Positions 14,125 through 17,747 of a DNA stretch of 39,290 nt are shown here, one piece after another (position 1 is the first letter of the stretch; each line of letters starts with the position of its first letter). The notes under the pieces were generated by a model that ran no database searches, had not been told where the DNA came from, and saw nothing but the letters and a program-made list of their open reading frames with translations. The stretch is taken from the NCBI GenBank assembly GCA_021323255.1, contig JAJTCL010000008.1:1-39290 (forward strand), in the 5' to 3' direction. The stretch is from Propionibacteriaceae bacterium (GTDB taxonomy: Bacteria; Actinomycetota; Actinomycetes; Propionibacteriales; Propionibacteriaceae). The position numbers and the translations under genes are program-made.

Positions 14125-15441
14125 GTGACATTGCAGGTGAGCGTCATCGGCACGAACTATCTGGGTGCTACCCACGCTGCAGGCCTAGCGGAATTCGGCC
14201 ATCAGGTCATCGGGGTTGACATCGATGTTGATCGCGTCAAGACGCTGAATGCTGGCCAGTCGCACATTTTCGAAGTTGGACTGGAGCCGCTGCTCGAGAG
14301 GCACACGGCGTCCGGACGACTGCGCTTCACCACCGACTACGCCGAGATTGCGGACTGGGCCGACGTACATTTCCTGGCCCTGGGGACCCCATCGGGCCCT
14401 GGCGGCGCCGCTGACCTGAGTCAGTTGTATGCGGCTGTTGACACGCTGGCACCGTTACTGACCAAGCCGACTCTGGTGGTCGGGAAGTCCACGGTGCCAG
14501 TTGGTACGGCGATGGCACTCGAGGAGCGACTGCGCAGCTCCTCGCCAGCGGGAAACGCCATCGAGGTGGCCTGGAATCCAGAATTTCTGCGTGAGGCCTA
14601 CGCCGTTGAAGGCACGCTGCGTCCTGACCGGCTCGTCTTCGGGACGCACTCCCGGCACGCTTTGGAGCTGCTGGAGGAAATCTATGCGATTCCCATCACT
14701 GACCGCGTTCCGGTTATTCGATGCGATATCGCGACCAGCGAGTTGATCAAGGCCGCTGCAAACGCGTTCCTGGCGACAAAGATCAGCTTTATCAACGCGA
14801 TGGCGCAGATGTGCCAGGCGGCAGGCGGCGATGTTGTCTTGCTGGCAGACGCCATCGGATATGACGAGCGAATCGGGCGGGAGTTCCTCAACGCCGGGTT
14901 GGGTTTCGGCGGCGGCTGCCTGCCGAAGGACATTGCGGCCCTGGCGGTACAAGCCGAGCAGCTTGGCGTCGATGTGCTGAGCGACTTCATTCGCTCAGTG
15001 GAGGCGATCAACGCCGGCCAGCGGACCGAACTCGCAGAGCTGGCAATCGATCAGGCTGGTGGCAGCGTGGCCGGCAAGCGCATTGCCGTCCTCGGGGCGG
15101 CGTTCAAGCCTGGTACCGATGACACCCGGAACTCCCCCGCGCTGACCGTGGCAGATCAGTTACACGCGGCAGGCGCAGACGTACGCATCTATGACCCGCA
15201 GGCGAGACTCGCTCCGCGCGAGGGCTTCACTCAGGTGGCCAGCGTCGAGCAGGCGCTGCTGGGCGCGGAGGTAGTGCTGCACCTGACCGAGTGGCCCGAG
15301 TTCCGTCAGCTCGACCCAGAACGGCTTGGTGATCTGGTCCGATCCAGGGTGATCATCGACGGCCGGCTCAAGCTTCATGCCCCCACGTGGCGCAATGCCG
15401 GCTGGAAACTCGTCCAGATCGGGCGCGCCAACAGCCTCTGA
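14125..15441 (+). CDS. ugd: UDP-glucose 6-dehydrogenase family protein
   Basis: SVIGTNYLGATHAAGLAEFGHQVIGVDID..., GFGGGCLPKDIAAL, GAAFKPGTDDTRNSPAL. Confidence 0.93.
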   Translation: MTLQVSVIGTNYLGATHAAGLAEFGHQVIGVDIDVDRVKTLNAGQSHIFEVGLEPLLERHTASGRLRFTTDYAEIADWADVHFLALGTPSGPGGAADLSQLYAAVDTLAPLLTKPTLVVGKSTVPVGTAMALEERLRSSSPAGNAIEVAWNPEFLREAYAVEGTLRPDRLVFGTHSRHALELLEEIYAIPITDRVPVIRCDIATSELIKAAANAFLATKISFINAMAQMCQAAGGDVVLLADAIGYDERIGREFLNAGLGFGGGCLPKDIAALAVQAEQLGVDVLSDFIRSVEAINAGQRTELAELAIDQAGGSVAGKRIAVLGAAFKPGTDDTRNSPALTVADQLHAAGADVRIYDPQARLAPREGFTQVASVEQALLGAEVVLHLTEWPEFRQLDPERLGDLVRSRVIIDGRLKLHAPTWRNAGWKLVQIGRANSL

Positions 15442-15450
15442 CGCCGACTT

Positions 15451-15516
15451 CCTAAGCCGACTTGTCAGAATCTCAGCACCATATGTGGTGCTGAGATTCT
15501 GACAAGTCGGCTTAGG
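15451..15516. repeat. Long palindrome P1, 30-bp perfect arms, 6-bp centre
   Basis: CCTAAGCCGACTTGTCAGAATCTCAGCACC atatgt GGTGCTGAGATTCTGACAAGTCGGCTTAGG. Confidence 0.98.
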
Positions 15517-16469
15517 CGACGGGTGGTACCCCCATTGCTCTGAGGTCAGCGACGATCACACGCGGCTCTAGGCGCACCTCGAGAGCGGTAGCTCGCATTA
15601 CCCTGAGCTACGTCCATATGATGCGCGCCATCAATCTCAAGAACCACGATCTCACCTGAGGGAAGATCCCATTCGCAGTCCAGATAGCGCCATGCACCCC
15701 GCTGATCCCGGCGACGACTCTGGCGCTGGGGAGGGACCAGACGGTATCTACGACAGATGGCGGCGATATCCAGCTCACCGAGTGAGTGGGCACCACGTGA
15801 AATGTCGGCCAGTGCGACACGGAGGTAGGCCTTGTGACGTACGCGTCCGACGTAACTCAGAGCGTGGTCAAGCTCGGCTGGCGTACACAGCCTCTGCTGG
15901 ACCGCAGCGGCGAGCATCAGGCACGCAAAGCGCGGCCACGGCTGCCAAGCTGCCGCGTCAATGACAGAGCGGGAATCTTCGGTCCGTCTGAGACCGCGAT
16001 CCCGCGTCCAACGTGCCTCGCCGAGCCGCCGCGATTCATGGACAACGACCCCTGGAAATTGGGTAACTTTCGCACCGCGCGGGACGAGCAAGTGTATCTG
16101 CTTGGCCTCCGTTGCGAAGGTTCTGAAACCGGCTAGTTCCAGAGACGTATGACTGCACAGCGCCGCGATCGGGCTCGCATCCAGGATTGCAATCCACATC
16201 AGCTGTCGACGGCTAGGTTGAGCATTCTGCAGCAGAAGCACCTTGTCGCCGCACGCTGTCCATCGCTCAGCATCGAGCTGATTGCGAATGTAAGAACGGT
16301 GGAGGCCCATAGCCCGACACTGGTCTCGATGGATGACGCCGTTTTGGGAACGAGCCGTACGGCTGAGCTCAGGAAATCCATCTGTTGCTGCGTACACGGC
16401 GCCGATTGTCGACGCGCGGTGACCGCGGAAGGAACCAGCTGCAAGAGATCTGTGGATAACTCGACCCAC
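15512..16469 (-). pseudogene. DUF559-type (Vsr/PD-(D/E)XK-like) protein with AbiEi-like N-terminal region, frameshifted near the C-terminus
   Basis: ORF gives ...RYLDCEWDLPSGEIVVLEIDGAHHMDV then loses homology. The adjacent frame gives RVMRATALEVRLEPRVIVADLRAMGVPPVA* (typical DUF559 tail), ending at TAA 15514-15512 inside palindrome P1. Confidence 0.75.
16451..16459 (-). promoter_or_regulatory. Perfect DnaA-box-like 9-mer (TTATCCACA)
   Basis: Plus strand TGTGGATAA, at the 5' end of the DUF559 gene. Confidence 0.4.
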
Positions 16470-16474
16470 ATTTT

Positions 16475-16526
16475 CGAGTTGTCAGAATCTCAGCACCAAA
16501 TTTGGTGCTGAGATTCTGACAAGTCG
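16475..16526. repeat. Long palindrome P2, 22-bp perfect arms (25 bp with one mismatch)
   Basis: CGAgTTGTCAGAATCTCAGCACCAAA|TTTGGTGCTGAGATTCTGACAAgTCG; arms identical to P1. Confidence 0.98.
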
Positions 16527-16529
16527 GTG

Positions 16530-17747
16530 TTAGGAGAGGCGGGTGGAAAGGTTGCTGTCCAGCGTGGCAAGAAACTCCTCGGTGGTCTGCCATGGCTGGT
16601 CGGGACCAACGAGCATGGCGAGATCTTTGGTCATGGCGCCGGCCTCCACCGATTTCACGACCACGTCTTCCAACGACTGAGCGAAGGCAATGACATCGGG
16701 TGTGCTGTCGAGCTTGCCCCGGTGCTTGAGGCCGCCGGTCCAGGCGTAGATCGAAGCGATCGGGTTGGTCGAGGTTGGCTTGCCCTGCTGATACTGCCGG
16801 TAGTGCCGGGTCACCGTGCCGTGGGCAGCCTCGGCCTCGACCGTCTTGCCATCCGGCGTCATCAGAACGCTCGTCATCAGTCCCAGCGAGCCAAAGCCCT
16901 GGGCGACGGTGTCGGACTGCACGTCGCCGTCGTAGTTCTTGCAGGCCCAGACGTACCCCCCGCCCCACTTGAGCGATGCCGCGACCATGTCATCGATCAA
17001 ACGGTGTTCATACGTCAGGCCGGCAGCCTGGAAATCGGCCGCGTATTCGCTCTCGAAGACCTCAGCGAAGATGTCTTTGAAGGCACCGTCGTACGCCTTC
17101 AAGATCGTGTTCTTGGTCGACAGATAAACCGGGTAGCCGCGCTCCAGTCCGTACGCGAACGACGCTCGCGCGAAATCGGCGATCGAGGCATTGAAGTTGT
17201 ACATGCCCATCGCCACGCCGCCGTCGGCTGGGAATTTCGCGACCACGTGCTGGATCGGCTCGCCGCCGTCTTCAGGCGTGAAGGTGATGGTGAGCTGCCC
17301 GGGACCTGGCACCTTGAAGTTGGTTGCTTTGTACTGGTCACCGTGCGCATGACGGCCGATCACGATCGGCTTGGTCCAGTTGGGCACCAGTCGCGGGATG
17401 TTGGAGATGATGATCGGCTCCCGGAAGACCACGCCACCCAGGATGTTGCGAATCGTCCCGTTGGGCGAAACCCACATCTGCTTGAGGTTGAACTCCTGCA
17501 CCCGAGCCTCATCCGGCGTGATGGTGGCGCACTTGACACCGACGCCGTGCTTCTTGATCGCGTTCGCCGCATCGACGGTGACCTGATCATCGGTGGCGTC
17601 GCGGTGGGTGATGCTGAGGTCGTAATACTCCAGGTTCACATCGAGATAGGGGTGGATCAGGCGGTCCTTGATGAATTGCCAGATGATCCGCGTCATCTCG
17701 TCGCCGTCGATCTCCACGACCGTGCCTTCGACCTTGATCTTCGCCAT
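16530..17747 (-). CDS. icd: NADP-dependent isocitrate dehydrogenase
   Basis: [31 protein letters not shown]..., [16 protein letters not shown]. Confidence 0.96.

Follow-up and report, generated by a model that had tools for sequence, protein, structure and literature searches.

REP-like repeats are common in bacteria, and to our knowledge the enzyme known to accompany them is the RAYT transposase. Vsr-like homing endonucleases, for example I-Bth0305I, provide a precedent for a Vsr-type nuclease in the service of a selfish element. The RAYT gene lies between two palindromes, the abundances of gene and repeat are correlated, and evolution is fast (PMC2817692). AbiEi, the antitoxin of the type IV AbiE system, binds as two monomers to two 23-bp inverted repeats 3 bp apart and bends the DNA (PMC7319586). 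For the palindromic repeats tagged with GTAG or CGTC, the text of PMC3733652 contained none of the actinobacterial terms that we looked for.

Here, we analyzed a stretch of 39,290 nucleotides from a Propionibacteriaceae bacterium (the window), in which two long palindromes in the region 15451-16526 flank a DUF559-type gene between icd and ugd. As in REP/RAYT systems and REPINs (PMC2817692, PMC3116915), the gene is bracketed by two copies of a palindrome that is also dispersed in extragenic copies; moreover, copy abundance follows the gene (with exceptions such as genome G094), palindrome and protein lineages match, and the gene is fast-evolving. However, the protein combines AbiEi with a PD-(D/E)XK-like nuclease where RAYT has a Y1/HUH transposase, and the palindromes are about 54 bp long, carry no GTAG or CGTC foot tag and reside in actinobacterial hosts. 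The tagged repeats of PMC3733652 are likewise small, dispersed and extragenic, but differ in length and feet. A hidden RAYT as the driver was rejected, since PF01797 was absent from 20/20 genomes of the genus while the control genomes gave matches. Given that there is neither a Y1 transposase nor a GTAG/CGTC tag, the system works like REP/RAYT but is not one. The matched brackets, dispersed copies, co-occurrence and covariation described below lend strong support to the suggestion in the first-pass annotation of a REP/RAYT-like pair whose enzyme is a Vsr/DUF559-like nuclease. We consider it probable that this is a palindrome-enzyme partnership in actinobacteria, of which the window holds one decayed member; in the open-access literature we found no earlier description of it and no report linking DUF559 or AbiEi to palindromes.

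The window gene and its two palindromes

The two long palindromes next to stop codons were found as first annotated (Table 1). P1, to which 30-bp arms had been assigned, is indeed a perfect palindrome, in which we count 31 perfect pairs around a loop of 4 nt; as DNA it folds at -39.6 kcal/mol, with a shuffle z of -19. For P2, the same count of 22 perfect pairs was obtained (16479-16522), rising to 26 pairs when one mismatch is allowed, and its DNA fold has a shuffle z of -11. The icd stop context reads TCC TAA CA, followed by CCGACTTGTCAG. No inverted repeat other than P1 and P2 exceeded the score cut-off in the 39-kb window, and Rfam returned only sub-threshold, chance microRNA-like hairpins. 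A further partial foot, GCCGACTTCCTAAGCCGACTT, lies between the ugd stop and P1 (15442-15465) and may be left over from another palindrome arm.

Table 1. Coordinates of the features at the icd-ugd locus of the window
Feature	Position	Strand	Basis and remarks
ugd	14125..15441	+	ORF; neighbor on the P1 side; orthologues in L077, L132, L133, L074, L108
P1 palindrome	15451..15516	.	downstream of the gene; core 54-bp unit 15457-15510
AbiEi-DUF559 pseudogene	15512..16397	-	probable span, GTG 16397 to TAA 15512-15514; alignment to four intact homologues; ORF open from 16469; weak AbiEi_4 match
DnaA-box-like TTATCCACA	16451..16459	-	between P2 and the likely start codon
P2 palindrome	16474..16527	.	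upstream of the gene, 2 bp past the icd stop
icd	16530..17747	-	ORF; stop abuts P2; orthologues with and without the element

The gene itself had been described as nuclease-like. It is not live: compared with four intact homologues, it carries a clean 50-nt deletion with a frameshift at the junction 15603/15604, which takes out the conserved W..D(M).RER motif. The window gene is a pseudogene because of this clean deletion with frameshift and, the window copy being dead, the system must be read from relatives. Homology favors the GTG as the likely start over the ORF start at 16469, while the ancestral frame does end in GCC TAA as proposed, its stop lying within the extended arm of P1.

The AbiEi half and the nuclease-like half

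Residues ~10-185 of the protein match AbiEi antitoxins, with E up to 8e-20 (PADLOC profile). The protein of Microlunatus speluncae gave an AlphaFold model with a pLDDT of 84.5, and Foldseek with this model returned AbiEi 6y8q as the sole PDB match below 1e-3 (E 2.4e-5). The C-terminal half has the invariant residues E208, D240, E254, D256, H260, D269 and R272 and matches DUF559, MTES_1575 and PvuRts1I weakly, below the curated cut-off for most members; its matches to nuclease folds are weak as well. Judged by these profiles and the model, the protein is an AbiEi-fold DNA-binding half joined to a divergent Vsr/PvuRts1I-like putative nuclease half. The first half resembles AbiEi of AbiE (PMC7319586, PMC3985639) in its fold and probably also in paired binding to inverted repeats of ~23 bp, the AbiEi repeat geometry being close to that of these palindromes; unlike AbiE, it is fused to a nuclease-like half, and its targets would be dispersed at gene ends. 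The second half, in which E, D, ExD, H, D and R positions are conserved, resembles the PD-(D/E)XK nucleases of the DUF559, Vsr and PvuRts1I type through these weak matches; it differs from them in its fusion to an AbiEi half and its association with a palindrome family.

These affinities allow the gene to be read as a defense or toxin-antitoxin component with incidental palindromes, as PADLOC matched a methyl-directed restriction profile besides AbiEi. However, no AbiEii-like toxin partner was recognized among the neighbors, whose translations were judged by eye (icd, ugd, glycosyltransferase, transglycosylase and methyltransferase genes), and the palindrome association would go unexplained; we find this reading hardly credible.

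A palindrome family dispersed at gene ends

The exact arm that was to be searched for, TTGTCAGAATCTCAGCACC, is restricted to P1 and P2 in its own genome, and the exact window arms had no further copy there or in 98 relatives. The private palindrome suggested by these exact-arm searches was dropped once relaxing the search to the feet exposed a family, which has 26 foot-sharing members in the window genome. This family is a 54-bp palindrome, CCGACTTGTCAG-N30-CTGACAAGTCGG, scattered at gene 3′ ends. With the feet CGACTTGTCAG...CTGACAAGTCG, we found 69, 20, 17 and 13 copies in G003 (M. speluncae), G015, G005 and G000 (the window genome), respectively, nearly all spanning exactly 52 bp. The looser pattern TTGTCAGN{28,32}CTGACAA gave 268, 75, 38, 26, 8 and 4 copies in G003, G005, G015, G000, G018 and G010, and these six are the genomes that encode a homologue more than 50% identical (family present in 6/6). 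Another 13, 6, 4, 2 and 1 copies were found in G075, G004, G011, G019 and G029, all without a close gene, and none in the remaining 47 of the 58 genomes surveyed; the reversed-pattern control gave 0-2 matches. Co-occurrence of gene and family had a Fisher p of 1e-5 across the 58 genomes and 0.002 within the genus, uncorrected for shared ancestry. The feet in the Microlunatus family read CCGACT or CCGAGT. An asymmetry between CCGAC and CCGAG feet was considered as an orientation tag and rejected, as most palindromes carry CCGACT at either foot and the copies in brackets show a mixture. The 13 copies in G075, which belongs to another family, are nearly identical to one another and represent a different TTGTCAG palindrome, TTGTCAGAGGTTTCTCGG.

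We then read the positions of 46 solo copies in G000, G005 and G015, with gene calls from a simple codon-usage finder. A predicted stop codon lay within 25 bp of 38 copies (median 5 bp), against 47% expected from random intergenic placements (p 1e-6), while start codons were not enriched (17/46 versus 44% expected). Thirteen copies lay between convergent and four between divergent genes, which is a trend only (p 0.16). These positions bear on the possibility that an AbiEi-type repressor uses the palindromes as operators: the upstream copy would serve autoregulation, the downstream copy would act as another operator or as a terminator, and the copies scattered elsewhere would form a regulon. 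AbiEi does autoregulate through inverted repeats of the same geometry (PMC7319586), and P2-type copies lie directly upstream of the gene. However, scattered copies that sit behind stops, show no preference for starts and fall between convergent more often than divergent genes are not what a regulon would lead one to expect; the matched downstream copy is left unexplained, and the residues of the nuclease half are conserved. We regard the operator reading as unlikely.

Among 68 distinct copies, inner arm positions mostly vary. Nevertheless, arm positions 8-18 are paired in 68-97% of copies versus 29-50% in shuffles, and each position shows three or four types of pair. The conserved feature is thus the palindrome and not its letters, and the changes in the arms are compensatory.

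To compare gene loci more widely, we scored each for mutually similar palindromes, one on either side of the gene, using genes from four families of the order and from Promicromonosporaceae and Cellulomonadaceae. A matched pair was present at 31/52 homologue loci (30/51 without a locus fetched twice) versus 0/98 control genes of similar length; at about 40% of the homologue loci it was absent under the scoring used. The palindromes differ between gene clades: Microlunatus and relatives have TTGTCAG, clade f2 has ACGTCCGAA, f4 has GAGACTTACGGG, much of f3 has CGTCAT, and there are others elsewhere. Arm similarity tracks protein identity (Mantel r 0.68, p <= 2e-4, 38 loci). The f2 palindrome is dispersed as a second, independent family, with 48 copies in G058 and four each in G092 and G076, all of which have a close homologue; G064 has 23 f2 copies, its gene being reduced to a remnant of ~350 nt between its own two palindromes, and G094 has 20 f2-type palindromes with the close gene absent. 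The f4 family numbers 1-6 copies in each of four genomes. At locus L180 (G058), the palindrome on the gene-start side is doubled in tandem, between the gene and a methyltransferase-like gene.

The same results weigh on the plain-terminator alternative of the first-pass annotation, by which strong bidirectional transcription terminators would flank the gene by chance. Stable hairpins behind stop codons, often between convergent genes, are in keeping with it. However, family abundance follows the gene, the flanking copies match at a majority of homologue loci and at none of the controls, and palindrome sequence tracks protein lineage; moreover, no T-run terminator site was found in 15400-16600, so that a Rho-independent terminator (GC-rich hairpin plus T-run) is lacking there. 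As a full account it fails, given the gene association, and we consider it highly improbable, although the palindromes may also terminate transcription as a side effect.

Upstream of the gene, the motif [TC][TC][GAC]TCCACA (consensus TTGTCCACAGG), which we take to be a DnaA box of the actinobacterial type, was present at 42/51 related loci (one locus counted twice) versus 29/1118 control genes. The TCCACA cores are mostly oriented with the gene (51 versus 13). The motif also occurs at loci without a palindrome pair and is not enriched near solo palindromes (1/46); therefore, it belongs to the gene. The end of Tn5/IS50 carries a DnaA box, which provides a precedent, and the motif hints at a tie between the gene and replication.

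Presence, loss and arm turnover at shared sites

The icd-ugd site holds palindrome, gene and palindrome in G000 and G015, a single decayed palindrome without the gene in G004, and an unrelated hairpin in G016. The gene-free icd-palindrome-ugd arrangement that had been predicted therefore exists, in G004. The accompanying proposal, that the unit inserted recently behind icd and duplicated a palindrome already there, is not supported, as the element adjoins icd in L075 and L076 and ugd in L074 and G005. Since the element stands beside icd or ugd in these other members of the clade, the solo palindrome of G004 is more simply explained as a scar of loss, which it probably is, and the element seems to have been at this locus for a long time. 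The window-type icd is missing from most genomes of the genus sample. In G018 (right flank of L013), the element adjoins an apparent monomeric-type isocitrate dehydrogenase, as judged by eye from the translation.

The f2 site, between transglycosylase-like and methyltransferase-like genes, contains the whole unit in G058, G092 and G076 and a remnant in G064. These neighbors are directly adjacent, with no unit, in G070 (93% identical neighbor), G073, G086, G067, G088, G082, G094 and G090, and no palindrome is present at these empty sites. The unit thus comes and goes as a whole at this site, by gain or loss. At the same site, L185 (G061) and L186 (G084) have other, unrelated long inverted repeats and no gene.

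For a comparison of turnover, four G000 sites (three solo copies and the icd-ugd element) were placed in 1.45 Mb of G015. A palindrome was present at 4/4 orthologous sites with the same feet, while the inner arms were only 0.23-0.5 identical, random family members reaching 0.45, and the flanks were 78-87% identical. Likewise, the gene copies of the window and of G015 at the icd-ugd site share 56% DNA identity, whereas the icd proteins are 93% identical; the two genes are not sisters in the tree, with marginal significance (AU p 0.034), and the window arms (AATCTCA) match those of the tree neighbors L075 and L076. For this small sample of four sites, the pattern suggests that other family members have taken the place of palindromes, and perhaps of whole units.

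Could the unit be a homing-type element, in which the nuclease cuts an empty allele at its resident palindrome so that palindrome, gene and palindrome are copied in by repair? The unit is wholly present or absent at the Kribbella-like f2 site, the icd-ugd site is shared by proteins that are not sisters, and I-Bth0305I is a Vsr-type nuclease serving a selfish element. However, the empty f2 sites offer no palindrome as a target, and hundreds of gene-free copies are left unexplained; unlike with I-Bth0305I, there is no intron, intein or split target gene, and palindromes stand at either end of the unit as well as in other parts of the genome. The homologous gene is, moreover, mostly single copy and found at shared loci in related species. 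Homing is in our view very unlikely. A second homologue in G023 (C1:1602816-1603628), 17 kb from the first and split in two pieces, is apparently a decayed copy. No homologue of the protein was found in the plasmid search, and the phage search gave one match, 31% identical (MT837139.1:3658-4395, a 7.6-kb unannotated record from human faeces).

A far-reaching reading, in our view slightly less likely than not, is that a nuclease family unrelated to RAYTs, an AbiEi-nuclease fusion, has independently evolved the REP/RAYT lifestyle, with its expression or action tied to replication via the DnaA box, and that it cuts its own palindromes, thereby spreading and homogenizing them at the gene ends of actinobacterial genomes. 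In the explanation that we prefer and consider probable, the two arms would be recognized by two protein monomers, in the manner of AbiEi on its inverted repeats, and the nuclease half would nick or cut the palindrome. Repair or copying would then spread palindromes to new gene ends and overwrite resident ones; gene ends would accommodate them, perhaps as terminators. Once the gene is dead, the copies would persist and decay, as may be the case in G004, G064 and the window.

If this is true, the lifestyle of an enzyme plus dispersed palindromes has evolved more than once, and many uncharacterized AbiEi/DUF559 genes of actinobacteria would gain a role. What keeps such palindromes alive would then become testable by comparison between families and by biochemistry.
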